Shown: piece after piece, positions 25,593 through 58,602 of the stretch | Layout of the letters: every line of letters begins with the position of its first letter | How positions within the stretch are numbered: the first letter of the stretch is position 1 | Assembly (NCBI RefSeq): GCF_001428605.1 | Contig: NZ_LMID01000001.1 | Coordinates: 62,001 to 126,000 of the forward strand | Length of the DNA: 64,000 nt | Origin: Sphingomonas sp. Root720 | GTDB taxonomy: Bacteria; Pseudomonadota; Alphaproteobacteria; Sphingomonadales; Sphingomonadaceae | Direction: 5' to 3' | The notes under the pieces: model-generated | Databases searched by the model: none | Told to the model about the DNA's origin: nothing | What the model saw: only the letters and a program-made list of their open reading frames with translations | Translations under genes and position numbers: made by a program

Positions 25593-25604
25593 TTGCTATG
25601 GCGT

Positions 25605-36137: not shown

Positions 36138-36153
36138 ACTGGCGTCCGTAGCC
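36138..36153 (+). repeat. Late intergenic motif, copy 1
   Basis: ACTGGCGTCCGTAGCC directly after the terminase stop. From the end of the core (TGGCGTCCGTAG) to the portal ATG there are 33 nt and no ribosome site. Confidence 0.85.
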
Positions 36154-36184
36154 GCCATCGGCCGTGCGGCACAGGTTCGCTCCC

Positions 36185-38137
36185 ATGTCAGGCCGCATCG
36201 CAAACGTCCGCCCGAAGCCCGGCTTCATGTTCGATGGCCAGTCCATCGTCCCCGCCCCACCCAACGTCATCCCGCTGCGCGACGGCCTGGGCAATGTGCT
36301 CACCGGCCGGGGCACGTCGATCGACCGGACGGTGCGCAATTTCTGGTACCGCCGGTTCCAGGACGTCCAACAGGTCTCATTCGCCTATCTCGGCTCGTGG
36401 CTGCACCGCAAGATCGTCGACATCCCCGCCGAGGACATGACCCGCGCCGGGCGCGACTGGGACGCGACCGATGACGAGATCGCGAAGATCGAGGCGGAGG
36501 AAAAGCGGCTCGGCTATTGGGAGAAGTTGTTCGAAGCGCTGCTCCTCGGTCGTCTCGGCGGTGGTGCCATCCTGATCGGGCTGGGCGACAACCCGGCGAA
36601 CCCGCTCCCCGTCACGATCCGGCCGGGCCAGATCCGCTATCTCACGGTGCTGTCGCGCTGGGAACTGAATCTCGGCGAAGAGGACCGCGACCCCGAGAGC
36701 GACACGTTCAAGCAGCCGAAGTTCTATCGCCTGCCCGGTACGTCGCGCCAGGTCGATATACACCCATCGCGCGTGGTCTGCTTTCGCGGCCTGCCCATTC
36801 CGGCCTTCCCGGGCATGACCTGGGAAGACCGATTCTGGGGCATGTCGGTGGTGGAGGCGGTCGACGAGGCGGTGCAGCAGGCCACCACCGCATGCGCGGG
36901 CTTCGCCGCCCTGATCGACGAGGCGAAGATCGACGTGTTCCGGTTGGCTGGCATGGCTGAACAGCTCCTGCAACCCGGCGGCGAAGACAGGCTGCTGCAG
37001 CGCGTGGAGATGACCAACACCGGCAAGTCGGTCCACCGCGCCGTCGTCCTCGACAAGGAAGACGAGTGGGAGCAGCGGCAGCTCGCGCTTACCGGGGTGC
37101 GCGACGTGATCGTCACCTATGACGCCCGCGTGGCCGGCGCCGCGGACATTCCCGCGACCCGCCTGTTCGGGAAGTCGCCCGACGGCATGAACGCGACCGG
37201 CGACAGCGACCTGACCAACTATTTCCAGTCGGTCGGGTCGAAGCAGGAGAAGCAGTTGCGCCCGATGATGGAGCGGATCGATGCGGTTATGCTGCCGTCG
37301 GCCGGGCTCAAGGCGGACCTGACGTGGTCGTTCTCACCGCTGATGGTGCTGTCCGAGAAGGACCAGGCCGAGGTCGAGAACAAGGAAGCCGACACCGTCA
37401 CGAAATACGCCAATGCCGGGCTGGTGCCGGAATCGGCGCTGGCAAAGGCGGTACAGAACAGGATGATCGAAAGCCAGCGCTGGCCCGGGCTCCAGGATGC
37501 GATCGACGAAGCGGATGCGGCGGGCGAAGGCCTGTCGGGCGAGGTCGATCCCGCCGAACTCGGCGTCGTGCCGGTGCCGGGCGCCAACCCGAACGCCCCG
37601 GGCGCCAACCCGCCTGCCCGCGCGCGCCGCGCTGCCAACGATGCGGCCATGTTCTTCGCCGATGCGAAGCCGCGCCCGCTCTATGTCCAGCGCAAGTTGC
37701 TCAACGCAGCCGATCTGATCGCCTGGGCAAAGTCGGCCGGCTTCACCTCGACGCTCCCGGCCGGCGACATGCACGTCACCGTCCTCTATTCGCGCACCGC
37801 GGTCGATCCGATGAAAATGGGCGAAAGCTGGGCTGGCGACGACAAGGGCCAGATCACCGTCAAGCCGGGCGGGCCGCGCGCCGTCGAGCGCCTCGGCGAG
37901 AGTGCCGTCGTGCTGCTGTTCTCGTCCTATGAGATCGAATCGCGCCATCGGGATATGGTCGCGGCGGGCGGGAGCCACGATTTCGAGGATTTTCATCCGC
38001 ACGTGACGCTGTCGTATGAGGTGCCGGCCGGACTGGACCTCGACACGGTCAAGCCGTTCACGGGGCGGCTGCTGTTCGGGCCGGAGTTGTTCGAGCCGCT
38101 TGATCTGGAGTGGAAGCGGAAGATCACCGAGGCATAG
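36185..38137 (+). CDS. Portal protein (DUF1073) with C-terminal Acb1-like 2H phosphoesterase domain
   Basis: 650 residues from the ATG that is 33 nt past the late motif (a GTG at 36164 is the alternative). Residues about 30-430 are a DUF1073 portal (FWYRRFQDVQQVSFAYLGSW, IPATRLFGKSPDGMNATGD). After a Pro/Asn/Ala linker (about 461-485), the C-terminal domain has two H-x-T motifs, HVTVLYS (His530, Thr532) and HPHVTLSYE (His606, Thr608), 76 residues apart, the arrangement of 2H phosphoesterases and of anti-CBASS Acb1. It could degrade cyclic nucleotide signals; whether it does so while in the virion is unknown. Confidence 0.88.
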   Translation: MSGRIANVRPKPGFMFDGQSIVPAPPNVIPLRDGLGNVLTGRGTSIDRTVRNFWYRRFQDVQQVSFAYLGSWLHRKIVDIPAEDMTRAGRDWDATDDEIAKIEAEEKRLGYWEKLFEALLLGRLGGGAILIGLGDNPANPLPVTIRPGQIRYLTVLSRWELNLGEEDRDPESDTFKQPKFYRLPGTSRQVDIHPSRVVCFRGLPIPAFPGMTWEDRFWGMSVVEAVDEAVQQATTACAGFAALIDEAKIDVFRLAGMAEQLLQPGGEDRLLQRVEMTNTGKSVHRAVVLDKEDEWEQRQLALTGVRDVIVTYDARVAGAADIPATRLFGKSPDGMNATGDSDLTNYFQSVGSKQEKQLRPMMERIDAVMLPSAGLKADLTWSFSPLMVLSEKDQAEVENKEADTVTKYANAGLVPESALAKAVQNRMIESQRWPGLQDAIDEADAAGEGLSGEVDPAELGVVPVPGANPNAPGANPPARARRAANDAAMFFADAKPRPLYVQRKLLNAADLIAWAKSAGFTSTLPAGDMHVTVLYSRTAVDPMKMGESWAGDDKGQITVKPGGPRAVERLGESAVVLLFSSYEIESRHRDMVAAGGSHDFEDFHPHVTLSYEVPAGLDLDTVKPFTGRLLFGPELFEPLDLEWKRKITEA

Positions 38138-38139
38138 CG

Positions 38140-38976
38140 GTGGCCTTCAATCTCCCCCTCATTGCCCGCGGGCAGGGTCTGCGCCGCGCCGTCACCCTCC
38201 GCCCGATCGTCCCGACGCAAGCGATGGCGACCGACCTCGCGGCCGTCTACGCGCCGGCATGGCAGGTGTGGCGCGATCACTCTGCGGCGATCATGGCGGC
38301 CTATGATCCGACGCCGCTTGCCATGGATGGCGCCCCGCTAACCATGGATGCCACCATCCATGACAGCCCAGACCAGGCCGCCAGCGAGATCGAAAGCACC
38401 GCCCGCGACTTCCTCTCCCGCCTGATCGTCGAGATCACACCCGCGCTGCGGCGCTGGGCTGTGCGAGCCGAACAGATCCACCGCGAGAAATGGGCCGCCG
38501 CGATAGAGGCCGGGACTGGCGTCGATCTCTCCACCGTATTGCTCGCGGGCGAGACGCGGGAGACCGTCGAGGCCTTCGTCGCTCGCAATGTCGCGCTCGT
38601 CCGCAACGTCTCCGACCAGGCGCAGTCGCGGATCTCCGATGCGGTGTTTCGGGGGTATCAGAACCGGACGCCCGCACGCGAGGTGGCGAAGGAGGTCCGC
38701 GAGGCGACCGGGATGGGCCGGGCTCGAGCCGTGAGAATCGCCGGGGATCAGAACGCCAAGCTCTCAGCCGCGCTCGACCTGCAGCGTCAGGCGGAGGCGG
38801 GCCTTGACCAATATCGGTGGCGGCACAGCCACAAGGCCCACCCGCGAGCCGTGCACAAGGCGCGGGACGGGAAGCTATTCAAGCTGGGGGAGCCGGCGGG
38901 GGATACGCCTGGGCAGGCGCCGTTCTGCGGGTGCCGCGCGCAGGCTTGGATTCCGCTGCTGGATGAGATCGATTGA
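38140..38976 (+). CDS. Minor head protein (SPP1 gp7-like)
   Basis: 278 residues from a GTG two bases after the portal stop. The C-terminal region has RWRHSHKAHPRAVHKARDGK and GQAPFCGCRAQ, the SPP1 gp7/Mu F signature. It is thought to help assemble or eject DNA through the portal. A long helical part makes up the first two thirds. Confidence 0.83.
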   Translation: MAFNLPLIARGQGLRRAVTLRPIVPTQAMATDLAAVYAPAWQVWRDHSAAIMAAYDPTPLAMDGAPLTMDATIHDSPDQAASEIESTARDFLSRLIVEITPALRRWAVRAEQIHREKWAAAIEAGTGVDLSTVLLAGETRETVEAFVARNVALVRNVSDQAQSRISDAVFRGYQNRTPAREVAKEVREATGMGRARAVRIAGDQNAKLSAALDLQRQAEAGLDQYRWRHSHKAHPRAVHKARDGKLFKLGEPAGDTPGQAPFCGCRAQAWIPLLDEID

Positions 38977-38980
38977 AAAT

Positions 38981-38993
38981 CTGGCGTCCGTAG
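38981..38993 (+). repeat. Late intergenic motif, copy 2
   Basis: CTGGCGTCCGTAG, five bases after the minor-head stop; again exactly 33 nt to the next ATG (39027), with no ribosome site. Confidence 0.85.
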
Positions 38994-39026
38994 AGCGCCT
39001 AACCAGCATCGGGGCATCCATCCCCC

Positions 39027-40178
39027 ATGCTGTTCACCGATCGCCTCACGCTCGATGCGCCGAAGAAAGTCCAGGGTGGCTTCCTTGCCGTGCGCGCCAA
39101 GGCGGCCCGGACTGGGGTCTATCAGTACACCGGCCGGGAAGTGGACCCCGACAACAAGCACGGTCTGCGCGATACCGCGGTGGTCAATGTCCTGCGCGAT
39201 GAAGCGACGGTTTTCGACACAGCGGCGGTTCAGAGCTTCATCGGCAAGCCGGTTACCGACGACCATCCCCACGAGAGCGTGACGTCGTCCAATTGGCGCG
39301 ACCACGCGCGCGGTACCATCATGGGCGCTATGCGGGATGGCGAATATCTCGCGTTCGATCTGCTCCTGATGGACCAGTCGACCATCGACAAGGTCAACGC
39401 CGGGAAGCGTGAGCTTTCGAACGGCTATGTGGCCGATATCGAGTTCGGCGATTTCAAGGCCGCAGACGGCACCGCTTGTCAGGCCCGCCAGTCCCGCATC
39501 ACCGACGGCAACCATGTCGCCCTGGTCAAATACGGCCGGGCCGGCGGCGACTGCGCCATCAAGGATGGTTTCGCGCTGTGCGACGCCCTGCCCTCCCATT
39601 TCCTCGACGGTCTTACCAAGGAGAAGCTCGTGAAGACCATGCTCATCGACGGTCTCACCGTCGACATCTCCAATGCCGATACGGCGGAGAAGACCATCAC
39701 CACCATCTTGGCCGCGCGCGACGCAGCGAACGTCAAGGTCACCGATCTCGAAACCAAGGTCGCCACCCTCACCACCGAGGGCGCCACCAAGGACGCGCAG
39801 ATCCAGACGCTCGAGCAGCAGGCGAAGGACGCGAAGCCGACCGCCGCCCAACTGCGCGACGCTGCAAAGGCCTATGCGCTGGTCTGCGACAAGGCGAAGG
39901 CGCTCGGCGTCCAGTTCGCCGAGGACGCCGACGCCGACGCGATCATGAAGGCGGTCGTCGACGCCAAGATGGGCGACGCTGCCAAGGATTGGTCCGCCGA
40001 CCAGGTCGCCGCCTCGTTCGCGGTCCTGTCGAAGGACGCCGCGCCGGCCGACCCGCTGCGCGAGGTGTTCCGCGACGGCATCCGGCAGCCCGCCAACGGC
40101 GCCAAGGCGGTCGACTCGCAGCGCCGCCGCTGGCTCGCCGACAAGGCGAACGCCCACCGCATCCAGCCCCGCGCCTAA
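39027..40178 (+). CDS. DUF2213 protein, probable prohead protease plus scaffold
   Basis: 383 residues. The N-terminal 190 residues are DUF2213 (GVYQYTGREVDPDN, GKPVTDDHPHESV, ELSNGYVADIEF), thought to be the head maturation protease; His80 of DDHPHE and Ser of ELSNGY are candidate catalytic residues. After that a coiled coil (about 225-270) and an Asp/Ala/Lys-rich tail act as the scaffold. Encoded just before the decoration and major capsid genes. Confidence 0.8.
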   Translation: MLFTDRLTLDAPKKVQGGFLAVRAKAARTGVYQYTGREVDPDNKHGLRDTAVVNVLRDEATVFDTAAVQSFIGKPVTDDHPHESVTSSNWRDHARGTIMGAMRDGEYLAFDLLLMDQSTIDKVNAGKRELSNGYVADIEFGDFKAADGTACQARQSRITDGNHVALVKYGRAGGDCAIKDGFALCDALPSHFLDGLTKEKLVKTMLIDGLTVDISNADTAEKTITTILAARDAANVKVTDLETKVATLTTEGATKDAQIQTLEQQAKDAKPTAAQLRDAAKAYALVCDKAKALGVQFAEDADADAIMKAVVDAKMGDAAKDWSADQVAASFAVLSKDAAPADPLREVFRDGIRQPANGAKAVDSQRRRWLADKANAHRIQPRA

Positions 40179-40190
40179 GGAGATCCCGAC

Positions 40191-40643
40191 ATGGCCGTAC
40201 TTCAGAACAGCTTCAGCGAGGACATTCCCTACGGCTATGCCGGTATGGAAGCCGATGGCGAGCTGAGCAACATCATCACCCGCACGCTCGAAGGCGACAC
40301 CGCCTGCGCGTTCGGCCGCCCGGTCTACCGGGGCACGGCGGACAAGGGCGTGACCCTGACGGTTTCGGCCGCGCTGATGGGCTTCGCGATCGCCCGCAAG
40401 GGCCTGCCGGTCACGTCCGGCCGCGCCGCCGACACCTTCGCGCCGGGCGACAACGTTCCGATCAAGGAACGCGGCAAGATCTGGGTGACGTCGGCCGCCA
40501 CCACGACCGATGGTGCGCAGGTCTATGTCACCAGCGCTGGCGCCGTCACCAGCTCCTCGGGCGGCAACACCGCCGCGACGGGCTGGTTCTTCGAGGACAC
40601 CCTGGCCAGCGCGCCGGGCCTCGTCCGCATCGTCCGCCGCTAA
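40191..40643 (+). CDS. Capsid decoration/cement protein (DUF2190-like)
   Basis: 150 residues, beta-rich, with VYRGTADKGVTLTVSAALMG and IWVTSAA; matches the structural cement proteins that precede DUF2184 capsid proteins. It would bind outside the shell at the three-fold sites. A good ribosome site (AAGGAG) precedes the start. Confidence 0.8.
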   Translation: MAVLQNSFSEDIPYGYAGMEADGELSNIITRTLEGDTACAFGRPVYRGTADKGVTLTVSAALMGFAIARKGLPVTSGRAADTFAPGDNVPIKERGKIWVTSAATTTDGAQVYVTSAGAVTSSSGGNTAATGWFFEDTLASAPGLVRIVRR

Positions 40644-40658
40644 CAGGGGGCCATTTCC

Positions 40659-41711
40659 ATGACCAAGCATATCACCCGCGACCAGATGGCTATCCTCGAA
40701 GACGGCTCGGTGGCCGTGTTCTTCGACTCGGTCGTCGCCGCCGTCGCGCATCTCGAGGCGAACGACCATGGCATGGCCTGGCTCGACGCCGTTCGTGGCG
40801 TCGATTTCGGCGATGCCCAGCAGACCATGGCCTTCCTCGCCCCGCAGCTCCTGCGCGTCGAGCAGGGCGTCTACATGGTCAAGTACCCGACCGCCGACTA
40901 TGCCGACTTCATGCCGGTCGACACCGCCGGCTCGGTCTGGACGGCGGGTTCGCTGTTCTACTCGGGCGACATCGCCGGCAAGCCGGAATGGTTCGACGTG
41001 GCGGCGGACGACATGCCCTATGCGGATGTCAGCCGGACCCAGTTCCTGCAGGAAAACCACATCGCCGGCATCGGCTACAAGTGGAACCGTGGCGACCTGG
41101 AGCGAGGCCAGCAGCTCGGCATCAACGTGATCGCTGACAAGGCGGACGCGGCGACCAAGACGGCCGAGCGCTTCATCCACAAGACCGGCATGACCGGCGA
41201 CGGCCTCAAGTTCGCGACCGGCTTCATCAACGACCCGCTGATGACGACCACGACCGGCCTGATGATCACCGCCTCGTCCGACCCGGACGATGACGTCGCG
41301 GTCATCAACGACGCGCTGACCTCGGTCGAGACCAACACGCTGGAGACCTATCGGGCCGACACGCTCGCGCTGCCGACCTCGATCTGGAACATCCTGGCGT
41401 CGAAGCGGGTGACCGACACCGGCGTCTCGGTGCTGCGTTATCTCGCCGACAACTCGGTCCTCGGCCCCGTCACGCTCAAGCGGACGCGGCACCTCGAGAC
41501 GGCCGGTGCCGGCGGCTCCAAGCGCATCATCGCCTATGCCAACACGATGGAGGTTCACCGCTTCCACCTGCCCGGCGGCGGTCACCAGTTCTTCCCGGCG
41601 TGGCAGAAAGGCCCGTTCTCGTGGGAAGTTCCGGGGATCATGGCGATCGGCGGCTACGAGATCCGCATCCCCAAGGCGAAGACCGCGGTCGACCTGACCG
41701 ACGCGTCGTAA
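40659..41711 (+). CDS. Major capsid protein (DUF2184, HK97-like fold)
   Basis: 350 residues. LAPQLLRVEQGVYMVKYPT, ADVSRTQFLQENHIAGIGY and DTLALPTSIWNILASKRV are features of DUF2184 capsid proteins; the C-terminus includes GIMAIGGYEIRIP. The gene order decoration protein, capsid protein is the usual one. SD GGGGG-like sequence before the start; GC3 is very high, as expected for a strongly expressed gene. Confidence 0.9.
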   Translation: MTKHITRDQMAILEDGSVAVFFDSVVAAVAHLEANDHGMAWLDAVRGVDFGDAQQTMAFLAPQLLRVEQGVYMVKYPTADYADFMPVDTAGSVWTAGSLFYSGDIAGKPEWFDVAADDMPYADVSRTQFLQENHIAGIGYKWNRGDLERGQQLGINVIADKADAATKTAERFIHKTGMTGDGLKFATGFINDPLMTTTTGLMITASSDPDDDVAVINDALTSVETNTLETYRADTLALPTSIWNILASKRVTDTGVSVLRYLADNSVLGPVTLKRTRHLETAGAGGSKRIIAYANTMEVHRFHLPGGGHQFFPAWQKGPFSWEVPGIMAIGGYEIRIPKAKTAVDLTDAS

Positions 41712-41726
41712 GCCGGAGAGACGGAC

Positions 41727-42080
41727 ATGGCCTTCTATCGCAACGATGCGCCTGGCGCTCGGATGATCCGGCTTATCGACCGGAGCTATGTTCTGGTCGA
41801 CGCTGGAAAGACCGCCCAGGCGCAGCGATCGAAGGTCGCCAGCATCCCGGCCGGGGTGATGGAGGTCGACGACGAGGGGAATGTCGTCGACCTCCCCGAG
41901 GCCCCGAAGGACCTCCCGCAGCTCGATCATGACAAGGACGGCGAGCCGGGCGGCTCCACGTCGCCCTCCGCGTCCGACGAGCTGAAAGCGGTCCGGGCCG
42001 AATACAAGGCCAAGATGGGCAAGAACTTCTTTCCGGCCTGGGATGTTGCCGAACTCAGGCGCCGGATGGGTGATGCGTGA
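41727..42080 (+). CDS. Hypothetical virion-region protein
   Basis: 117 residues: a short ordered start, a very acidic middle (EVDDEGNVVDLPEAPKD) and a C-terminal helix. Follows the major capsid gene. Possibly structural; unknown. Confidence 0.65.
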   Translation: MAFYRNDAPGARMIRLIDRSYVLVDAGKTAQAQRSKVASIPAGVMEVDDEGNVVDLPEAPKDLPQLDHDKDGEPGGSTSPSASDELKAVRAEYKAKMGKNFFPAWDVAELRRRMGDA

Positions 42081-42616
42081 GGCGACTGGAGATCGGGCCG
42101 GGTAGGCAGCGTCTGCCCGGCTATGAGACGCTCAACCTGATCCGCACGCCCTCCACCGACCATATCGGCGATTGCCGCCGTCCCCCCTTCCCCGACGCGA
42201 CCTTCGACGAGGTCTATTCCTCGCACTGCATCGAACATGTCGAATGGTTCGAGGTCGAGGCGACGATCGTCGAATGGGCGCGGATCCTGCGCCCCGGTGG
42301 CATCCTCGAAATCCATACCGTCGATGGCGAGCGCATGATGCGCGCCATGCTCGGCGAGATCGAGGTCCATCCCGGCGAATGGAAGCGCGACCTCCACCTC
42401 GGCGACCCGTACAAATGGGCCGCCGGCCGGCTGCTCAACTACGCCAAGCGCGGCGAGGCCGGATCATCCTGGATGCACCGCGCCATCCTCACCCCCGCCT
42501 ATCTGCGCGGCTGCCTCGACGCCGCCGGCATCGTCGATATCGAATCGGTCGAGGAGCCCAAGGGAGAGAAAAGGCACCGCGGCATCAACATGGGGCTCCG
42601 GGGCCGCCGCGCGTGA
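42077..42616 (+). CDS. SAM-dependent methyltransferase
   Basis: 179 residues, GTG start with GTGA coupling. Class I methyltransferase: LEIGPGRQRLPGYETLNL (motif I), CRRPPFPDATFDEVYSSHC and EWARILRPGGILEIHT. The residues resemble those in polysaccharide or glycan methyltransferases that lie beside glycosyltransferases. Part of a four-gene cassette inserted between capsid and connector genes. Confidence 0.8.
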   Translation: MRRLEIGPGRQRLPGYETLNLIRTPSTDHIGDCRRPPFPDATFDEVYSSHCIEHVEWFEVEATIVEWARILRPGGILEIHTVDGERMMRAMLGEIEVHPGEWKRDLHLGDPYKWAAGRLLNYAKRGEAGSSWMHRAILTPAYLRGCLDAAGIVDIESVEEPKGEKRHRGINMGLRGRRA

Positions 42617-43452
42617 TCAATATCCGCACCGTCGGCGACATGGCCGCTACGATCGCCCGCAACCTTCACCGAATCGACCGGTCCGCCTTCGACGTCGTCG
42701 TGGGATTGCCTCGATCGGGCATGCTGCCGGCGTCGATCATCGCCACCCACCTGCAAATGCCGCTCGCGGATCCTGCGGGCTATGCCGCCGGCATCGTCCA
42801 TGGGCGCAGCGGCGCACCGGTCGCGCGCGGCGATCGCGTCCTGCTGGTCGACGACAGCTGCAACAAGGGCCGCGCCTTCGCTCGTGCCGTCCAGCTGCTT
42901 CCCCGTGGAACCAAGGTCATCCGCCTCGCCATCTTCGGGCCCTATCAGGTCGATCCGGCCACGGTGTGCGATATCTGGTTCGAACAGGTCGGAGGCCCGC
43001 GCGTCTTCGCCTGGAACTGGACCAAGCATATCCGGCTGCCGCGCTGGGGCTTCGACTTCGACGGAGTGCTGTGCCGCGACAATCTCAAGGTCGAGAATGA
43101 CGACGGGCCGCGCTATCTCGACTTCCTCGCCAATGCCGAGCCGCTGTTCCTGCCGACGCGCGCGATCGGGCATATCGTCACCGGCCGCCTGGAACGCTAT
43201 CGGCCCCAGACCGAGGCATGGCTGCGGCGTCACGGCGTCCAGTACGAGAGCCTGACGATGATGCCCTATGCCACCAAGGCGGAACGCATGGCGGCCGGCA
43301 ACCGCGGCGGGTGGAAGGCGGAACAGGCGCGCCGGCTCGGCGTCGAGATGTTCATCGAAAGCAGCGCGAAGCAGGGCGCCGCGATCGCGCGCGAGGCCGG
43401 CATCCCCGTCTTCTGCACCGACACCCAGGAGGCCATTCGATGCTTAGCCTGA
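42613..43452 (+). CDS. Phosphoribosyltransferase-HAD hydrolase fusion
   Basis: 279 residues, GTG start, GTGA-coupled. The first half is a PRTase (VVVGLPRSGMLPASII, PRPP loop VLLVDDSCNKGRA). The second half is HAD-like: DFDGVLC for motif I, IVTGR for motif II, and WKAEQARRLGVEMFIESS for motifs III/IV, where the usual DD is ES. Such pairings can make or handle phosphorylated sugar donors. The exact substrate is unknown. Confidence 0.78.
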   Translation: MINIRTVGDMAATIARNLHRIDRSAFDVVVGLPRSGMLPASIIATHLQMPLADPAGYAAGIVHGRSGAPVARGDRVLLVDDSCNKGRAFARAVQLLPRGTKVIRLAIFGPYQVDPATVCDIWFEQVGGPRVFAWNWTKHIRLPRWGFDFDGVLCRDNLKVENDDGPRYLDFLANAEPLFLPTRAIGHIVTGRLERYRPQTEAWLRRHGVQYESLTMMPYATKAERMAAGNRGGWKAEQARRLGVEMFIESSAKQGAAIAREAGIPVFCTDTQEAIRCLA

Positions 43453-44171
43453 TCATGCCCTATTACCGCAATCCCGGGCAGCTCGCGCTCCACTATGCGA
43501 CATGGGCCGCATGGGGTCCGGAGATGAAGGCGCAGACCGAGATCGTCATCGTCGACGACGGCTCCCCCGAGCCCGCGGCCGACGTCGCCCGCCCGGCCGG
43601 CCTGCCGCCCCTGTCGATCTACCGCGTCACCGAGGACCGGCCCTGGCATCAGCATGCCGCGCGCAACCTCGGCGCGCATGTCGCGAAAGAGCCATGGCTG
43701 CTGCTGACCGACATGGATCATGTGCTCACCGCCGACGCCGCGCACGCGCTGTTCCGCCGCATGCACCGGCTCGAGGCGGGCACCGCCTATTTCCTCAACC
43801 GGATCGATGCGGACACCGGAACCCCGACGCTGGGGCGAGACGGGCAGCCCAAGCCTCACCCGAACAGCTTCGTCATGACGCGAGACCTCTATTGGCGCGT
43901 CGGCGGCTATGACGAGGATTTCTGCGGCATTTACGGCACCGATGGCCTGTTCAAGAGCCGCCTGTTCGACACGGCCGGGCGCGGCTTCCTCAAGCATGTC
44001 GCCCTGGTCCGCTATTCGCGCGACGTGATGCCCGATGCATCGACGTCGACCCTGCCGCGCAAGGACGGCCGGATGCCGGGCGCGAAGCGGGCCGTGCTCG
44101 CGGCGAAGGCGGCGCGGGGCGCAGCCGGCACGATCACCGTCCTCGACTTCCCGTGGGAGCGCGTGCTGTGA
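43440..44171 (+). CDS. Glycosyltransferase family 2-like protein
   Basis: 243 residues. N-terminal LIMPYYRNPGQL, EIVIVDDGSPEP and LLLTDMDHVL give the nucleotide-sugar fold and a DxD motif. The C-terminal RVGGYDEDFCGIYGTDG is the galactosyltransferase-type acceptor motif. It overlaps the previous gene by 13 bases and the next by four. Confidence 0.82.
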   Translation: MLSLIMPYYRNPGQLALHYATWAAWGPEMKAQTEIVIVDDGSPEPAADVARPAGLPPLSIYRVTEDRPWHQHAARNLGAHVAKEPWLLLTDMDHVLTADAAHALFRRMHRLEAGTAYFLNRIDADTGTPTLGRDGQPKPHPNSFVMTRDLYWRVGGYDEDFCGIYGTDGLFKSRLFDTAGRGFLKHVALVRYSRDVMPDASTSTLPRKDGRMPGAKRAVLAAKAARGAAGTITVLDFPWERVL

Positions 44172-45064
44172 AGCTGACAATCCTGACCTGGCTGTGGCGG
44201 CAGCCGCAGAGCCGGACCAGCTTTACCGCCATGCATGTCAATATATGGGCGGCGATGGTGCGCCGGCATTGTACGCTCGACATCGAGATCGCGTGCGTCA
44301 CCGACATGCCCGACGGTATCGATCCCTCGATCCGCATCATCACACCGCCCGGCGAGTTCGTCGGGCTGCAGACGCGGCGTTGGCGCGGGCAGCGGCCGAA
44401 CTGCTACCGCCGCCTCGCCATGTTCCGCAGCGACGCGGCCGGCATCTTCGGCGAGCGCTTCGTGTGCATGGACCTCGACGTCGTGATCGCTGGCAACATC
44501 GATGCCATCCTCGACAGGCCCGAGGACCTCGTGATCTGCGGCCCATCCCAGGAGGGACCGCGCTGGCGCTACAACGGTTCGATGCTGCTGATGACCGCGG
44601 GCGCCCGGCCGCACGTCTATGACGATTTCAGCCTGGCCGGAGCCGAGGAGGCGAGCCGCCTGTTCGTGGGCTCGGATCAGGCGTGGCTCGGCTATGCGCT
44701 CGGTCCTGGCGAGGCGACATGGTCGATCGCCGATGGCGTCACGCGCGCCAGCGATAGCGAGATGGGCCGGATCCGCTTCTACCCTGGTCATGTGAAGCCG
44801 TGGGACGAACTCGCCGATGCCTGGGTCAGCGAGCATTACCGCATGACCGGTGGCCGGCACGGTCTCGTCCTGGGGCAAAAGCGCGCGGTGTGGGACGAGG
44901 CGCGCGAGGCCATGGCGCGCGACCGATTCGACGGCGTGATCGCCTATCCCGCCGCCGCCGAGAAATGGCACGGCCCGGTCGATGCGATCGTCGAGAGCAA
45001 GGCCGAAGTCGCGACCTTCGCGCGGATGCTGGGCTTCGACAGGCTGACCGTCTGCGGCGGCTGA
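44168..45064 (+). CDS. Glycosyltransferase (GT8-like)
   Basis: 298 residues from GTG (GTGA). Contains RFVCMDLDVVIAGNIDAIL, a GT8-type DxD motif, an acceptor part RWRYNGSMLLM and SDQAWLGYALGPGE. Together with the GT2 it could add two sugars in order to a virion protein or host glycan. The second-to-last 60 residues look unlike GT8 and may be a separate domain. Confidence 0.78.
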   Translation: MKLTILTWLWRQPQSRTSFTAMHVNIWAAMVRRHCTLDIEIACVTDMPDGIDPSIRIITPPGEFVGLQTRRWRGQRPNCYRRLAMFRSDAAGIFGERFVCMDLDVVIAGNIDAILDRPEDLVICGPSQEGPRWRYNGSMLLMTAGARPHVYDDFSLAGAEEASRLFVGSDQAWLGYALGPGEATWSIADGVTRASDSEMGRIRFYPGHVKPWDELADAWVSEHYRMTGGRHGLVLGQKRAVWDEAREAMARDRFDGVIAYPAAAEKWHGPVDAIVESKAEVATFARMLGFDRLTVCGG

Positions 45065-45066
45065 CG

Positions 45067-45078
45067 TGGCGTCCGTAG
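45067..45078 (+). repeat. Late intergenic motif, copy 3
   Basis: TGGCGTCCGTAG, three bases past the glycosyltransferase stop; 57 nt to the next ATG (45136). Confidence 0.82.
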
Positions 45079-45135
45079 CGACCGGGCGGCGCCGGGCGGA
45101 ATGGTCATGCCGACCCCCGGTAGCAGGATCATGCC

Positions 45136-45396
45136 ATGTCAAGGAGCTTCCCCCTCAAGCGCGCCAGCGACATAACCGCCTTCGGGTCGGATGTGATCGA
45201 ATGGACCCCGGCCGACACCGACCTGCCCAGCGGGACGCGCGGCTTCTTCCTCGACGCGGACGGCACCGTGACGTTCAAGAATAAAGCCCTGGTCACGCGG
45301 ACCGCCGTTCCGGTCAAGGGTGTGTTCTGCCCGCCATTCGTGCCGCGTCGCATCACCGCGATCGGGACCGCGACCAAGGTCTATCTGATCGTCTGA
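45136..45396 (+). CDS. Hypothetical structural protein
   Basis: 86 residues, beta-rich (GTRGFFLDADGTVTFKNKAL, VYLIV end). The location between capsid and connector genes suggests a small virion part. Joined to the next gene by TGATG. Confidence 0.68.
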   Translation: MSRSFPLKRASDITAFGSDVIEWTPADTDLPSGTRGFFLDADGTVTFKNKALVTRTAVPVKGVFCPPFVPRRITAIGTATKVYLIV

Positions 45397-47362: not shown

Positions 47363-47375
47363 CTGGCGTCCGTAG
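47363..47375 (+). repeat. Late intergenic motif, copy 4
   Basis: CTGGCGTCCGTAG starting immediately after the DUF3168 stop. Followed 54 nt later by a tail-tube ATG that, unlike copies 1, 2 and 5, has a strong AAGGAGG ribosome site. Confidence 0.85.
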
Positions 47376-47429
47376 AGCACCCAAGGTCGCCGCCATAGCG
47401 TGCCCGAAATCGAAGGAGGTTTCCGGGCA

Positions 47430-47885
47430 ATGGCATATACCACGTCGAAGCTGAAAAGCACCCGCGTCTATCTCGCGATGGGCGACGGCGCCGATCCCGA
47501 GGTCTTCTCCGCGCTGTGCGGCATCACGACCAAGGGTTTCCAGCAGACCCGCGCCACCAACGACACGACCGACTGGGACTGCGCCGATCCCGACGCCTCG
47601 CCGATCACCATCCGCGACATGGGCGCGAAGGATTGGTCGATGACCGGATCGGGCCTCCTGGCGCGCAGCCTGCTCGCCGACGTGCAGGCCGCATTCGATG
47701 CCGGCAACCCGACCAATTTCCGCTTCGTGTTCGATGAACCCGCCTCCGACGAGATCGTGGACGGCTATTATCAGGGCCCGGGCATCATCACCGACTTCAA
47801 CGTCACCGGCGAGAATGGCCAGTTCGTCCAGATCTCGATCACCATCTCGGGCGCCGACGCGGTGCAGTTCATCTCCGGCAGCTGA
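47430..47885 (+). CDS. Major tail tube protein
   Basis: 151 residues. TTKGFQQTRATNDTTDWD and SMTGSGLLARSLLADVQ are typical of TP901-1/lambda V-type tail tube proteins. The ATG at 47430 has AAGGAGG 11 bases upstream; a GTG at 47400 is open but less likely. Strong GC3 and ribosome site suit high expression. Confidence 0.87.
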   Translation: MAYTTSKLKSTRVYLAMGDGADPEVFSALCGITTKGFQQTRATNDTTDWDCADPDASPITIRDMGAKDWSMTGSGLLARSLLADVQAAFDAGNPTNFRFVFDEPASDEIVDGYYQGPGIITDFNVTGENGQFVQISITISGADAVQFISGS

Positions 47886-47896
47886 TCAGGCACGTC

Positions 47897-50921: not shown

Positions 50922-51481
50922 TGACGATCTACCGCGAAAGCGTCGTCGTCCGGATCGATTGCGATCCGCCCGCGCTGCTGTGGTCGGGGCTCGGGCCGCT
51001 TGCCGTTCCGGCCGATGCCATCATCCCGGCGCCAGCTATCGCGCTGGGTGGCGGGCAGCTGATCAGCGTTCCGGATTTCCAGCAACTCATCGGCGGGACG
51101 GCGGAGCGCCTCGATTTCGTCGTGTCGGGCGTCGACGACGATACGGTCCGGCTCGCCTTGGAAGACGCACCCAGCGTTCGCGGCGCCAGGGTCGATGTCG
51201 GCACGGTCCAGTTCGACCAGGACTGGCAGCTCGACGCGATCGAATGGGAGAATGTGTTCGAAGCCCGCTCGCTATCGATCAGCCGGCCCCGGTCGCAGAA
51301 CGGAAAGACGACGCGCTCGATTACCCTGACGATCGTCCAGGGATCGACCCGCCGGGCGCGCGCCACTCTCGCTTTCTTCACCGACGCCGACCAGCGCCGC
51401 CGATCGGCCGACGATGCGATTTTCAGCAACGTCGCCGGCATCACGGCGGGCACGTCGCGTCGTTTCGGGCCGAACGACTGA
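50921..51481 (+). CDS. Distal tail/hub protein
   Basis: 186 residues, beta-rich with ALLWSGLGPLAVPADAII and WENVFEARSLSISRPRS. Place after the tape measure suggests distal tail or hub role. Joined on both sides by TGATG. Confidence 0.7.
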   Translation: MTIYRESVVVRIDCDPPALLWSGLGPLAVPADAIIPAPAIALGGGQLISVPDFQQLIGGTAERLDFVVSGVDDDTVRLALEDAPSVRGARVDVGTVQFDQDWQLDAIEWENVFEARSLSISRPRSQNGKTTRSITLTIVQGSTRRARATLAFFTDADQRRRSADDAIFSNVAGITAGTSRRFGPND

Positions 51482-51876
51482 TGGCGGACCTTGGCGAATG
51501 GCTTTCCGAACAGGGCGCGCGCCGCCGCGAGCCGGGCATCTGGGACTGCTGCGCCATGCCGGCCGAATGGGCGGTAGCATGTGGCCGCCCTGATCCCATG
51601 GCGCGCTGGCGCGGCACCTATGGAACCGATGCCGAAGCCGAGGAGCGCATCACCGAAGCCGGCGGCCTCACGGCTCTCTTCGCCATGGGCATGGAGGATG
51701 CCGGCATCCGCGAAGTGAGCGACCCCCAGGCCGGCGATATCGGTGTGATCATGATCGGCGGTGAGGAGGCCGGGGCGGTCTTCACCGGGCGGCGGTGGGC
51801 CTTCGTGCCGGGCGGGCGCGGGCTCGCGATAGGTTCCGTCGATCCGGCGTCCATCATTCGGATTTGGAGGCCCTGA
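51481..51876 (+). CDS. DUF6950-like tail-tip protein (possible peptidase)
   Basis: 131 residues. IWDCCAMPAEWAVACGRPDP with RWRGTYGT resembles DUF6950, in which a Cys near the N-terminus and a later acid/His may work as in NlpC/P60 peptidases. Here Cys24/Cys25 are present but a convincing His partner is not clear. In the tail tip it would help pass peptidoglycan. Confidence 0.72.
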   Translation: MADLGEWLSEQGARRREPGIWDCCAMPAEWAVACGRPDPMARWRGTYGTDAEAEERITEAGGLTALFAMGMEDAGIREVSDPQAGDIGVIMIGGEEAGAVFTGRRWAFVPGGRGLAIGSVDPASIIRIWRP

Positions 51877-53708: not shown

Positions 53709-53712
53709 CGAA

Positions 53713-53725
53713 CTGGCGTCCGTAG
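53713..53725 (+). repeat. Late intergenic motif, copy 5
   Basis: CTGGCGTCCGTAG, four bases past the tip-protein stop; exactly 33 nt to the next ATG (53759). Confidence 0.85.
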
Positions 53726-53758
53726 CCTTCCGGGGGGCCTGCGCAGCATCGTCCGCCC

Positions 53759-54436
53759 ATGCTGGTCTTCCCCACATGGCGCTTCCCGTTCAAGTCGAAG
53801 GACTTCGACATCGACCTGTCGACGATCTCCGGCGGGGTGGCGCTCAACGGGTCCGAGGACATGATCGCGACCGACGGCGGCGGCAGCTGGTCGGCCGATC
53901 TCGGCAGCGCCGATCTCTACACGCGCGATCGCGTGATGCTGTGGCGGGCCTTCAAGTCGGCGCTGCACGGCGGGATCGATCCGTTCGTCTTCCCGGCCTG
54001 CGATGCCCGGCATCAGCCGCGCGCCCCGTCTGTGTTGGTCCCGCATAGCGATGGCAGCCCTTTTTCCGACGCAACGCTCTATTCGGGCGCGGACGGAGCG
54101 CTGACGGCCGGCGCCGCGTTGCGCGCGACCCAGATCGCGATCAGCCACAGCCTTGCCGAGCCGCTGATCGGGGGCGAGCGCTTCACCATCGTCCACGCCA
54201 CGATGAAGGATCGCTGCTACCAGATCGGGCGCATCCTCGCGCAGGATTCTACATCCGCCACCATCCAGTTCCACCCGCCGCTGCGGGAAGCGACCGAGGC
54301 GGACACGTCGATCGATTTCACCAATCCCCGCTGCGTCATGCACCTCGACGGAGCGATGCGCGCGCCGCTCGCCGGGCCGCGCTGGGCAACGGGTTCCGTT
54401 CGGTTCGTCGAGGATTTTTCAGGGAGTTACGTCTGA
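53759..54436 (+). CDS. Tail protein of unknown family
   Basis: 225 residues, FPTWRFPFKSKDFDIDLSTI then beta-rich; CVMHLDGAMRAP near the end. Similar proteins follow the J-like gene in related siphoviruses, as I recall. Probably part of the tip or fibre base. Confidence 0.68.
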   Translation: MLVFPTWRFPFKSKDFDIDLSTISGGVALNGSEDMIATDGGGSWSADLGSADLYTRDRVMLWRAFKSALHGGIDPFVFPACDARHQPRAPSVLVPHSDGSPFSDATLYSGADGALTAGAALRATQIAISHSLAEPLIGGERFTIVHATMKDRCYQIGRILAQDSTSATIQFHPPLREATEADTSIDFTNPRCVMHLDGAMRAPLAGPRWATGSVRFVEDFSGSYV

Positions 54437-57177
54437 TGAGCGCCAGCCAGATTCGGGCTGCTGTGGAAGCGGCGTTCCGCGATTTCACCGTGGACGGCGT
54501 ACCATCCAGCGGCGCGCATGATCCGATCAAGGTCGAGATCCGCTATGCGCTAGGTCAGCTGCTCGAGACGGCCTTGTCGTCGATCAGCTCCGGGCTGCTG
54601 CGGTACGCCACCGTTTCGGCCATGGAGGCTGTCACCGACAAGGACGATGGCCAACTCGCCTATGTCTATGCGAACAACGCCGACCCGGCCGACAGCGAAA
54701 ATGGCGTGTACCAGTGGGACGACGGCGGCAGCGAATGGGTCGTGGCCGACTGGTATTACGCCGCGGTCGTCGCCGCGGTGCAGGCGCAGATCCCGCCCGA
54801 CGACGTGGTGGTGACCGTCCTGCCGTACAAGGAGCTTCCGCCGAGCGGCTCCAACCTGCTGCGCGTCCACAGCATCAAGCTGTTGCCCTCGATCACGCTG
54901 CCGACCGACCCGCTCTACGTCCGCTACCTCTTCCGCGACCATGGTGGCGCTGGCGGCGCCGAGCGGACCCAGTTCATCATCTCCAAGTGGACCGGGTCTG
55001 CGGTCGACCTGATCGGTCTCGCGGGGTCCGGCGCCAACGTCAACACCGGCGGTTCTACCGGCCTGGTCGAGATGGACCTGAAAGCCGCCAGCGGCACGGC
55101 CTTCGCCGGGGTCGCGAACGACCAGAAAATCGGCACGCTGACGATCGACTTCAAGGACGGTGCCGACTTCACCGCCGGAACGCTCTCGGTAGCGACCAGC
55201 GAGCTCGAACCGCTGCGGTTGCAGATGCCGGCGGGTGACCAGGATGCCGTGGAGGAAAAGGTGAGCGATGCACTCGACGATCTGTCGCTGTCGAAGGTCC
55301 CCTTTGCCCAGGAGGTGACCGCCATTCCGATCCGGAAGCTGGTCAAGTCGATGTGGCTCTACGGCGCGGACCCGACGCACGACTATGCGATCTCGGTCCT
55401 GACGGTCGAGACCTTCACCACGCCATCTACCCGCCTTCGGATCACGGTTCGCGACCTGACGGACGGGGTCGACGTCTGTTCGGTGCTTAAGGGCGTCGCT
55501 TCACAGCCCGGCTTCGCCACCTTCGTCGCCACCCTGCCCGACATCGTCAAGGTCATGGGCGACGGCGCGACGCCGAAAACCCGGCTGTATTGCCTGATGG
55601 AGTTCGACTGGACCGCGGTGTCCGACTTCTTCAGCTATGGCTCCGCCACGATGGCCGGGGCGGGCATCAGCCCGGAGCGCCTGGTATCGGACGAGATGAT
55701 CGCGGATTATCTCGACAGCGATCATTGGCACGAGGTGATCCGCGTCGGCGATGGCGAGACCTACGAGACGCTGCGCGACGCCGTGGAAAGCACCTATTCT
55801 GCCATCTATGTCGGCTCCGACATCAACGGGGCACCGATCTGCGATCGGGCACATTATCACCACCGCATCCTGATCGACGTGGTCGACGACGCGACCTTCG
55901 ACGCGACCTTTCTCAAGCTGCCGAGCTTCGTCGATCTGCGCTGCAATGGCATCGACCGGACCCTGATTGTCCGGGAAAACACCGATCCGGATGCGATGAT
56001 CGAGGCTCACAAGAACCATAAGATCCGGGACTGCACCATCTACAGCGAGACGGCGGGCGAATATTGCATTCACTCGGATGACGCCAATCGTGACGTGCTC
56101 GACGGAACCGGGCAGTACATCCGCCTGCGCCAGTCGTTCAAGCGCGTGAAGCTCCAGGGCGCGATCGGCCATAACGGACCGCTGTTCGGATCGGGGATCT
56201 CGTCTGGCGAGGAGATCCGGTTCGAGGATTGCATCGGCGAGCATCTCGATCCGACCGCGACGCAGGCGGCCTTCTTCTTCCACAACAATGGCCCTACCAG
56301 CACGGCGCCGACGGTGGAGGTCGGGACGAAGCCCGCGCAGGTGACGATGCGCGGGACATCTTCCCCCGACCAGCTCGGGGTGATCCTTCAAACGATCGAT
56401 CCATCGGCGATATGCTCCCTGACCTTGATCGGTTGCGAGTTCCGGCTGATCCGGCTCGACATCGCGACCGGCGGCGAGGTGCGCACCGATCTTGTGTCCG
56501 ACCGCAACGCCTGGCGGATCGGCGGGCGTCATGACGGAGCGTTCCAGATGTTCGACCCGGTCGGCGCGACCGTGCTCAAGACGACGGCGGGCGAGGAGCC
56601 GAGCGGCGATGCGGCAGCGCTGATCTTCGGCGCGGTCGACGAACTCGGCCGGGGCGAGAAGTGGATCGGCGACGGCGATTTCACCTTGGGCAAGCGCCTG
56701 GGGGATTGCTCGTCGGTCACGAAGACGCTGACAATCGACGGGCAGGACTGCGTTTTCTCGACTGACCTGACCAACGCCAGCAACGCGACGATCGTCTCGG
56801 CGATCAACGCAGCGATCACGAGCAACCCCGTGTCGATCGTCGATATCGCGCTGGAATGGGTTCCCGACGCCGCGCCGAAACGGCGGGTGCGCAACAGTAG
56901 CGGCGCGACGATCGCCAAGGGCCGGTTCGTGCGGTTCAGCGGGGCATCGACCATCGTCGCCTGTGCGGCCGGCGAGCGCCCTGATGGCTGGACGCACCGC
57001 GACATGCTGGACGGCAGCGACGGCTATGTGATCCTGACGAAGCGCGTGCATCAGGATTATATCCCCGGCGCATCGGCCGGCACGGGCGAATGGGGCGTCA
57101 GTGCCGGCGGCGTGATCGATTACGCCGCCGCGACCAAGCTGGGCAGGACCATGGGAAGCATCGTCACCGTCTATTGA
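54436..57177 (+). CDS. Tail fibre/spike with beta-helix domain
   Basis: 913 residues, TGATG-coupled to the gene before. The N-terminus (SASQIRAAVEAAFRDFTVDG) is a phage-fibre attachment region. Around 430-690 it has a pectate-lyase-like right-handed helix (GDGETYETLRDAVES, DCTIYSETAGEYCIHSDDA, RFEDCIGEHLD). The C-terminus has a globular part ending near KLGRTMGSIV. It likely binds or cuts surface polysaccharide. Catalytic residues cannot be named. Confidence 0.8.
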   Translation: MSASQIRAAVEAAFRDFTVDGVPSSGAHDPIKVEIRYALGQLLETALSSISSGLLRYATVSAMEAVTDKDDGQLAYVYANNADPADSENGVYQWDDGGSEWVVADWYYAAVVAAVQAQIPPDDVVVTVLPYKELPPSGSNLLRVHSIKLLPSITLPTDPLYVRYLFRDHGGAGGAERTQFIISKWTGSAVDLIGLAGSGANVNTGGSTGLVEMDLKAASGTAFAGVANDQKIGTLTIDFKDGADFTAGTLSVATSELEPLRLQMPAGDQDAVEEKVSDALDDLSLSKVPFAQEVTAIPIRKLVKSMWLYGADPTHDYAISVLTVETFTTPSTRLRITVRDLTDGVDVCSVLKGVASQPGFATFVATLPDIVKVMGDGATPKTRLYCLMEFDWTAVSDFFSYGSATMAGAGISPERLVSDEMIADYLDSDHWHEVIRVGDGETYETLRDAVESTYSAIYVGSDINGAPICDRAHYHHRILIDVVDDATFDATFLKLPSFVDLRCNGIDRTLIVRENTDPDAMIEAHKNHKIRDCTIYSETAGEYCIHSDDANRDVLDGTGQYIRLRQSFKRVKLQGAIGHNGPLFGSGISSGEEIRFEDCIGEHLDPTATQAAFFFHNNGPTSTAPTVEVGTKPAQVTMRGTSSPDQLGVILQTIDPSAICSLTLIGCEFRLIRLDIATGGEVRTDLVSDRNAWRIGGRHDGAFQMFDPVGATVLKTTAGEEPSGDAAALIFGAVDELGRGEKWIGDGDFTLGKRLGDCSSVTKTLTIDGQDCVFSTDLTNASNATIVSAINAAITSNPVSIVDIALEWVPDAAPKRRVRNSSGATIAKGRFVRFSGASTIVACAAGERPDGWTHRDMLDGSDGYVILTKRVHQDYIPGASAGTGEWGVSAGGVIDYAAATKLGRTMGSIVTVY

Positions 57178-57238
57178 TGTCGGCGCGGATCAGCAGTTAC
57201 CCGAAGTCGACACGGGCGAAACGACCTCCTATCAGTGC

Positions 57239-58444
57239 ATGATGCAGGGTCGACATCAGCGCACAGGCGCTCCGGATCGCTTCGTCGTTCTGGATAGCTT
57301 CCGGGGATTGTTCGCCTGCATCGTGGCTCTGTTCCACCTGGGGACGACATCGTACATCGGCAGCCTGTCCATCATTAAGAATGGCTGGCTTTTCGTCGAT
57401 TTCTTCTTCGTTTTGAGCGGTTTCGTGATTGCCGCCGGCTACGGCAGTCGCCTCCGCGAAGGATATCCCCCGAGCCACTTCCTGCTGCTTCGGCTTGGTC
57501 GCATCTACCCTCTCCATATCGTGGTGCTGGCCGCGTTCGTCGCCCTCGAATGTCTCGCGTTGATCGTCCCCAGCCTCGTCGGGGCGCGGCATGCGTTCAC
57601 CGGCGTTCGGACGCCCGGCACCATCATCTCGAATATCTTTCTGATGCAGCCTTTCGCCGATGGATTGAGCTGGAACCAGCCGAGCTGGAGCATAGCGACG
57701 GAGTTCTGGACCTATGTCGCGTTCGCGCTGATCTGCTGCTTTGCCGCGCGCTGGTACGCCCTTATATTCGTCGCGATCATCATCATCGCTCCGATCTCGC
57801 TCGCCCTCGAGCCTCGCCACCTGTTCCAGATCGTGGGCTGGCAGGCGCAGGTTCGGTGCCTGTATGGATTCGCCGCAGGCTGCCTGGGCTATCTGATATT
57901 CCAGCATGTCCGCGTCCCGCGCGGAGCGCTTGCGACCCTCCTGGAAACGGCGATGGTGATCGGGATCGTGGCGTTCGTCTCTCTCGCTGGTGATGGAGCA
58001 TGGAGCTTGGCAGCACAGCCCATATTCCTCGGCGCCGTGCTGATCTTCGCCCATCAAGGCGGCGCCGTCAGCGCGTTGCTGCTCAAGCCGGCCTTTCGGA
58101 CCATCGGGCTGCTTTCCTACTCGATCTACATGATCCATATCTTCGTCGAAGCTCGCTTTCTGGACGTGCTGATCTTCATCCAGCGACCGCTTGGAATGGA
58201 GCTTGTCAGCGTGGAGCGGACGGCGACGTCGGCGACCAAGATGCTGGTTGGACCGGGGGTCGTGGGAGAAATCAGCGTGCTCCTGACCCTGGCTGCCATC
58301 ATCGCCTGTGCGGCGATCAGCTATCGCTACATCGAGAAACCTTGTCGCGATTGGTCGCGGCGGTTCGTTGCCCATCTCCAGCGCGGCCGCACCAATAATC
58401 GCGTGTCCGCTGCCGTGCGTGTTGAGCGGCGGCGGAAACCTTAA
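57239..58444 (+). CDS. Acyltransferase-3 (OafA-like) membrane protein
   Basis: 401 residues, about ten membrane spans. It starts VVLDSFRGLFACIVALFHLG, the acyltransferase-3 signature with catalytic His, and has FFFVLSGFVIAAGYGSR and SWSIATEFWTY. Phage-borne members acetylate O-antigen or other surface sugars and can block superinfection. It lies directly after the fibre gene, in the same direction. A possible lysogenic-conversion gene; its sequence is lower in GC. Confidence 0.88.
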   Translation: MMQGRHQRTGAPDRFVVLDSFRGLFACIVALFHLGTTSYIGSLSIIKNGWLFVDFFFVLSGFVIAAGYGSRLREGYPPSHFLLLRLGRIYPLHIVVLAAFVALECLALIVPSLVGARHAFTGVRTPGTIISNIFLMQPFADGLSWNQPSWSIATEFWTYVAFALICCFAARWYALIFVAIIIIAPISLALEPRHLFQIVGWQAQVRCLYGFAAGCLGYLIFQHVRVPRGALATLLETAMVIGIVAFVSLAGDGAWSLAAQPIFLGAVLIFAHQGGAVSALLLKPAFRTIGLLSYSIYMIHIFVEARFLDVLIFIQRPLGMELVSVERTATSATKMLVGPGVVGEISVLLTLAAIIACAAISYRYIEKPCRDWSRRFVAHLQRGRTNNRVSAAVRVERRRKP

Positions 58445-58465
58445 GCGCCCCCATTCTGGTCCCCA

Positions 58466-58478
58466 CTGGCGTCCGTAG
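58466..58478 (+). repeat. Late intergenic motif, copy 6
   Basis: CTGGCGTCCGTAG, 21 bases after the acyltransferase stop. The next plausible ATG is 58565 (mini-frame) or 58603. Confidence 0.85.
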
Positions 58479-58602
58479 CCCGCCCACTCCTCAAGGGTAG
58501 TTTGACGGCGGTAATCGGAATGGGCGCAGCGTCATAGCGTCCTGGGAAATCCTCGGGGATCGCCATGCTCAACAATTGCCATCACACCTCAGGCTGGGCC
58601 GC

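Follow-up and report, generated by a model that had tools for sequence, protein, structure and literature searches.

A repeated intergenic 12-mer as a predicted late-promoter element, with a candidate regulator, in a Sphingomonas prophage and its relatives

What is the function of a 12-mer, TGGCGTCCGTAG, that recurs between the late genes of a prophage in Sphingomonas sp. Root720? The prophage lies within a stretch of 64,000 nucleotides (nt) (contig NZ_LMID01000001.1, positions 62,001 to 126,000 of the forward strand; hereafter the window) and was found by protein family searches to have a siphovirus-like gene set. The original prediction was that the 12-mer might mark a set of late promoters with mRNAs starting at or near the ATG or, alternatively, an RNA-processing or translation signal. 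The verdict of the present analysis, as far as sequence can support it, is that the 12-mer is a genuine late-promoter element, conserved among relatives, whose starts are predicted to be leaderless, and that a small protein, designated X, is a promising candidate for its unnamed regulator. Dozens of related phages share the layout of the element and the small unnamed protein X.

In the proposed mechanism, the 12-mer would be an upstream recognition element located at -45 to -34 of the RNA start, in place of the normal -35 box. A -10-like hexamer, YANNNT, would follow 19-21 nt past the element, and the RNA would start 6-7 nt beyond the hexamer. Where there is no leader, the RNA would start at the A of the ATG, giving a leaderless mRNA, while a start codon farther down would be preceded by a leader that often has a Shine-Dalgarno-like site. 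X, which is small, rich in Lys and Arg, predicted to be helical and encoded just before the terminase genes, would be the most likely binder of the 12-mer. Taken as a whole, the statement that the 12-mer is a late-promoter element, that the RNA begins at the ATG where there is no leader and that X is the activator is on balance probable.

Occurrence of the 12-mer in the window and the host genome

An exact-match search of the window found six copies of TGGCGTCCGTAG, all on the + (coding) strand, where 0.02 were expected, and none of 100 shuffles reached six. The coordinates, strand and sequence originally reported were correct in every case, as was the claim that such a 12-mer is not expected by chance. 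The copies do lie close behind stop codons, but the gaps, taken from the ends of the open reading frames, were 2, 5, 2, 1, 5 and 22 nt for copies 1-6, a range of 1-22 rather than 0-21 nt. Similarly, the count of six holds for the exact 12-mer, but a seventh element in a second spelling, TGACGGCGGTAA, had been missed. The six copies mark six borders, before the portal, protease, structural/connector, major tail, tail and end-of-cluster genes. The elements are listed here, with types A and B denoting the two main spellings found among the relatives.

36140..36151, + strand: copy 1, type A, before the portal gene; -10-like CAGGTT at 36172-36177; predicted RNA start at ATG 36185
38982..38993, + strand: copy 2, type A, before the DUF2213/protease gene; weak -10 CATCCA at 39015-39020; predicted RNA start at ATG 39027
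45067..45078, + strand: copy 3, type A, before structural/connector genes; weak -10 AATGGT at 45100-45105; predicted RNA start near 45112; ATG 45136
47364..47375, + strand: copy 4, type A, before the major tail gene; -10-like TAGCGT at 47396-47401; predicted RNA start near 47409; Shine-Dalgarno GAAGGAGG at 47412-47419; ATG 47430
53714..53725, + strand: copy 5, type A, before the tail gene; -10-like CATCGT at 53747-53752; predicted RNA start at ATG 53759
58467..58478, + strand: copy 6, type A, before the end-of-cluster genes (presumed lysis module); -10-like TAGTTT at 58498-58503
58503..58514, + strand: seventh element, type B, in tandem with copy 6; -10-like TAGCGT at 58535-58540; predicted RNA start near 58548

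For copies 1, 2 and 5 the distance to the ATG (at 36185, 39027 and 53759) is exactly 33 nt, and no Shine-Dalgarno-like site was found at these three starts, as had been described.

In this genome the 12-mer is confined to the prophage. Many copies in the host chromosome had been named as an outcome that would speak against a promoter function; the whole genome (5,588,032 bases in 17 contigs) contains exactly six, none of them outside the prophage, and the reversed control pattern matched once. In a search of 98 genomes of relatives, own genome included, 11 had at least one copy and only the own genome had more than two. The type B spelling GACGGCGGTAA occurs four times in the whole genome. A two-part profile whose training set left out the window's own contig gave scores of at least 18 to all six copies and to the type B element, and the only other match at or above 10.5 scored 12.2. 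No element was found on either strand of 12 control stretches taken from elsewhere in the host genomes of X-bearing prophages.

Spacing to start codons and to a -10-like hexamer

Relatives were collected by searching viral contigs with the TerL (terminase large subunit), portal, protease and tail proteins, which gave 38, 24, 29 and 3 loci, respectively, and one locus, the Novosphingobium prophage L056, was added from genome contigs with the portal protein; relatives of this kind by themselves make a sphingomonad host likely. By the searches made, no close relative of this prophage group was present among 50,697 named phage records. The close relatives L018 and L020 have the identical 12-mer after TerL and before the protease, and in other relatives the element, located mostly between genes, has as its core either GTCCGTAG (type A) or [GA]GCGGTAA (type B). 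Private spellings occupy the same place in L090 (TGAGGGGTATAA), L103 (GACGACGGTAA; L103 and L188 look like the same prophage) and L105 (CAGCCGTAATC). Spacing was counted in 65 of these loci, four of which (L019, L078, L107 and L131) are the window's own phage. Type A was found at 83 places, 76 of them on the sense strand, and an ATG followed 31-34 nt on at 45 of the 76, at exactly 33 nt in 26 cases. Type B was found at 114 places, 85 of them on the sense strand, and an ATG followed at this distance in 44. Permuted and reversed cores gave no peak at 31-34 nt, the largest count being 4, at 8 nt.

The regularity of this spacing bears on the suggestion that the element is a recombination linker kept at module borders. 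It does sit at gene borders in mosaic phages, and the capsid gene tree requires 10 changes of element type. However, the distances to the -10 and to the ATG are fixed and most gene borders are without an element, since there are only six exact copies in the window, so that this suggestion has next to no probability.

At 93 of the 161 places on the sense strand a YANNNT hexamer began 19-21 nt past the element, as compared to 8.4 expected from shuffled spacers. At near starts, those with an ATG at 31-34 nt, the hexamer was present in 21/45 (type A, 2.0 expected) and 37/44 (type B, 2.4 expected). At far places, here all sense-strand places lacking such an ATG, it was present in 16/31 (A, 1.4 expected) and 19/41 (B, 2.6 expected). 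The own phage accounted for three rows among the 45 near A, three among the 31 far A and one among the 41 far B; when it was left out and near-copies were thinned, 64 of 122 places had the hexamer with 6.3 expected (near A 17/36, 1.6 expected; far A 11/24, 1.0; near B 27/34, 2.0; far B 9/28, 1.7). The distance from hexamer to ATG was 6-7 nt in 56 of the 58 near hexamers, and the base preceding the near ATG was C or T in 44/45 (A) and 36/44 (B) cases. A Shine-Dalgarno-like site was found at just 2 of 89 near starts and at 17 of 42 far starts (A 13/22, B 4/20), far being defined for this count as an ATG or GTG 44-72 nt away. The major tail gene of the window has the far form, with TAGCGT at 47396, the Shine-Dalgarno site at 47412 and the ATG at 47430. 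An unguided count of 8-mers at -46 to -38 of the ATG was too noisy to be used (mean 3.0 in 44 loci with X, control window 2.4; 2.4 in 18 loci without X, control 2.2).

Since the interval of 19-21 nt is kept whether the ATG is near or far, the distance of the hexamer is fixed to the element and not to the start codon. The spacing, the hexamer and the pattern of Shine-Dalgarno sites together lead one to expect that transcription starts some 33 nt beyond the element, and with the A of the ATG where the gene begins there. The geometry of motif, -10 and ATG and the absence of a ribosome site can be read directly from the DNA; from these the element very probably marks late promoters, and the RNA quite probably starts at the ATG to give a leaderless mRNA. 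The idea of late promoters with mRNA starts at or near the ATG is thus supported, at the level of sequence, by the 31-34 nt spacing, the -10 at 19-21 nt, the 6-7 nt to the ATG and the near lack of ribosome sites. The motif had also been placed near -40, the position expected for binding of a class II activator; if the A of the ATG is +1, the 12-mer spans -45 to -34, so the repeated site overlaps the -35 region and is followed by a host-type -10 at a fixed distance, as expected of class II activator promoters. We infer that these promoters depend on an activator.

The element might instead be the -35 box of a dedicated sigma factor, either X or another phage protein, rather than an activator site. 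It is asymmetric and positioned like a long -35 box, and X is small and predicted to be helical. However, the hexamer downstream of the element conserves T or C followed by A at its beginning and T at its end, as expected for the main sigma factor of the host; T/C-A and the final T are the most conserved positions of ordinary -10 boxes. Moreover, the gap of 19-21 nt is longer than the usual promoter spacer, and X has no match to a sigma family, which makes a dedicated sigma factor improbable. On inspection by eye, TGGC...GC was also discounted as a sigma-54 promoter, the spacing being too short for the consensus.

A signal at the RNA level, in which the 12-mer lies in a leader of about 45 nt and controls translation or processing, would be consistent with the fixed 33 nt to the ATG and the lack of a ribosome site at three copies in the window, and inverted repeats are found beside start codons in relatives. 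Such signals, the alternatives originally offered, predict a fixed relation to the start codon. Instead, it is the distance to the -10-like hexamer that is fixed, while far starts vary in their distance to the start codon, and 73 of the 89 near starts have no such stem; a signal of this kind is very unlikely.

Many relatives have an inverted repeat at the start of the protease gene, directly against the ATG or overlapping it, with arms that differ in sequence yet still pair. Repeats at protease starts were found at 39011-39025 in the window, where the stem is just 4 base pairs, and in L018, L020, L021/L093, L056, L098, L115 and L117, and by eye in L082 and L103. Stems of at least 6 were present at 9 of 25 protease-like starts (0.58 expected from shuffles) and at 7 of 64 other starts (1.33 expected), the protease group having been chosen by a rough pattern on the first residues that includes at least one portal start (L081) and misses at least one protease start (L018). 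The repeat might silence read-through mRNA while the leaderless mRNA stays free.

The distant TerL relatives L049, L035, L037, L038, L039 and L025 have intergenic sequences resembling CTCC[CG]TA[GT]CAT, several with an ATG 6-7 nt later; L049 has five sense copies, three with such an ATG. These are perhaps another type of leaderless promoter, with the -10 inside the motif.

Gene X and its co-occurrence with the element

The candidate regulator is encoded upstream of the first copy of the element.

33162..33620, + strand: candidate late activator gene X, 152 amino acids, just before the terminase genes
33623-33853: gene adjoining X, encoding a small member of PHROG 8252 (function not assigned there)

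The first 75 or so residues of the window's X are common to a family of proteins mostly 65-80 amino acids long, and Lys and Arg outnumber Asp and Glu in the four members counted. One member was predicted to form four helices (pLDDT 82), and the window's X three confident helices and an extra, less certain C-terminal part. Searches for relatives of X in Pfam and PHROG returned nothing more than single weak rows, and nothing in a sigma family. Against PDB sequences there were six rows, all with E-values above 1, and against PDB folds no match at an E-value of 0.001 or below, nor any on a second look at two chains. X may be a helix-turn-helix protein, a reading of its sequence that the Pfam, PHROG, PDB sequence and PDB fold searches neither support nor deny. 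Among 50,697 phage records, one, MT836812, was matched by two of three X queries, and an 8.7-kb piece of this record (L215) has two X-like stretches. The adjoining PHROG 8252 protein was found in 16 of 28 chosen contigs and is frequent with both element types.

The association of X with the element came from a family search in which profiles were made from 516 seed open reading frames, taken from the stretch upstream of the portal in five contigs, and compared to 28 contigs that we had chosen. X was found in 27 of the 28 (12/12 with type A and 12/12 with type B elements), the next family being TerL in 26, and X was the only family upstream of the portal to reach 27, even where TerL was just 30-34% alike. 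The sole contig lacking X, L128, has no A or B element. In a separate test, 18 contigs with new names, some of which may be near-copies of earlier contigs, were fetched by X alone, and 14 carry elements. All eight contigs with type A X (X-A) had A elements only (19), and six of the ten with type B X (X-B) had B elements (10, each with both ATG and -10).

The comparison was extended to 44 loci with X and 18 without it, all chosen by us and counted with variant spellings that were defined after some of the same contigs had been viewed (L185 and L196 were left out). The loci with X had 159 sense and 19 antisense elements, with at least two in 40 of 44, as compared to 9 sense and 6 antisense elements in loci without X, only one of which had two. 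No X profile match was present in the 18 loci even at an E-value of 10, L102 among them holding just 3 kb upstream. X was found in 14 of 396 genomes of the order, with a stop codon within the aligned stretch in four of the 14.

Several observations weigh against the proposed mechanism or the part assigned to X, 1) 24 of the 45 near type A places have no YANNNT at 19-21 nt, 2) window copies 2 and 3 have poor -10s, 3) far starts have a Shine-Dalgarno-like site in only 17 of 42 cases, and in only four of 20 for type B, 4) no structure or family match confirms DNA binding by X, 5) in the separate test four of the ten X-B contigs have no element, although three of these hold less than 5 kb after X and the fourth, L159, has a variant, 6) a stray A match turned up in one of the X-B contigs with B elements, and control patterns counted by the same looser either/or rule gave 0 (A) and 5 (B) matches, and 7) only seven of 13 X-bearing chromosomal regions other than our own have at least two clear elements (L184, L186, L187, L188 in a private spelling, L189, L194 and L196), the other six having at most one or two weak ones.

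The trees do not set X apart from other genes. The A/B split on the X tree is a single change with weak support (58/71, few columns), and a larger, quick X tree needs three. A single change, fully supported, is enough on the portal and head-morphogenesis trees, and the TerL tree (10 rows) also needs one. The pairing of element and X could consequently be explained by lineage alone, and a test of whether element type follows X better than other genes did not separate them, the portal and morphogenesis trees being cleaner. In addition, L106 and L096 have an A-side X with type B elements, L187, L189 and L194 group with the A-side X in the quick tree but have B elements, and L022-L025 and L045 have weaker X-like matches and no A or B element.

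These discrepancies would be consistent with the same late promoters being read by another phage or host factor, X being a conserved neighbour of the terminase with some other job. Such a reader would account for an A-side X with type B elements in several phages, for portal and morphogenesis genes that track the element type at least as well as X, and for X-bearing prophages, including those with the weaker matches, that show no element. However, X is the only family from 516 seeds that is found upstream of the portal in 27 of 28 contigs, even where TerL has diverged, loci without X lack the elements, and the 12-mer is absent from the host genome outside the prophage. Another reader is possible but rather unlikely. 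X itself is marginally favoured as the late activator from its co-occurrence with the element, as a candidate and not a demonstrated partner. Tentatively, and a little short of an even prospect, X may found a new family of very small phage late activators whose asymmetric site is respelled across phages (GTCCGTAG, GACGGCGGTAA, GACGACGGTAA, TGAGGGGTATAA, CAGCCGTAAT), phages that would express many of their virion operons as leaderless mRNAs.

The result is a testable late-gene switch for this prophage group, for which one genome supplies a candidate regulator and seven predicted RNA starts. If the mechanism is correct, it would provide a large natural set of leaderless promoters with start sites readable from sequence, and the specificity with which regulator and site pair might be traced through many related phages.

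Comparison with known systems and the surrounding genes

No description of this element was found in the titles and abstract openings of the literature searched, and neither 12-mer was among the exact-string matches listed. The late promoters of phage P2 have a TGT-N12-ACA site and are activated by Ogr, a C4 zinc-finger protein with the pattern CX2CX22CX4C (PMC3931495). As in P2, a small phage protein, here a putative one, would turn on several late operons via a short repeated upstream site. However, the site is an asymmetric 12-mer at -45 to -34, not TGT-N12-ACA, and the transcripts appear leaderless; the zinc-finger pattern was not found in X, and no cysteines are conserved across the X alignment. 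The element system would thus work most like the activator-dependent late promoters of P2, yet it is no member of that class.

The SAS/ESAS sequences of cluster K mycobacteriophages, GGGATAGGAGCCC, occur at gene starts, contain AGGAG and in some cases have inverted repeats (PMC3203893). They are likewise short, asymmetric, mostly in one orientation and tied to gene starts across related phages, but the present element has another sequence, lies 33 nt upstream and is coupled to a -10-like hexamer, and it is not an SAS by these features.

The stoperators of L5-like cluster A phages are asymmetric 13-bp (base pair) sites, in line with transcription, that are bound by the immunity repressor, also act as promoter operators, and show that a monomer can read an asymmetric site (PMC9283540). 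By analogy, the 12-mer could be a set of repressor sites, as in mycobacteriophage L5, that block late transcription in the prophage state, for it is also short, asymmetric, oriented along transcription and located in short intergenic spaces. However, there is no copy near the repressor gene or in the early region, the first being at 36140, and the coupling to a -10 and an ATG that gives these sites a promoter geometry has no role in a stoperator, so that this explanation is extremely unlikely.

Leaderless mRNAs have been reported in alphaproteobacteria, 375 in Caulobacter (PMC4117421) and 171 in S. meliloti (PMC3616915). Those are host genes, whereas here the virion genes of one phage group share a promoter type and the starts are predicted.

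The remaining genes of the prophage include head morphogenesis and major head protein genes and a DnaB-like helicase, as well as the following.

24857-25855: repressor with an S24 peptidase domain
34328-34711: TerS
34701..36137, + strand: TerL, the upstream neighbour of copy 1
36185..38137, + strand: portal gene, with the ATG that lies 33 nt past copy 1 as its start
39027..40178, + strand: head maturation protease
47430..47885, + strand: major tail protein
53759..54436, + strand: tail protein
57239-58444: acetyltransferase, O-acetyltransferase (O-antigen acetylase-like), just before the last promoters

A possible end of the prophage is at 12521-13848, where a tRNA-Gly lies beside a reverse-strand open reading frame of 411 amino acids. 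This frame, which had no Pfam match at 0.01, was taken for an integrase. Residues 507-652 at the C-terminus of the portal protein, listed for this match as 36164-38137, match PHROG 755, 'RNA ligase', and two HVT motifs in this stretch resemble those of 2H phosphoesterases. The region between the head and connector genes, 42077-45064, has methyltransferase-like and glycosyltransferase-like genes, separated by one or more genes that matched no PHROG; of 41 loci compared by tblastn, only L020 and L079/L111 had matches to these genes. The acetyltransferase at 57239-58444 may change the host surface.

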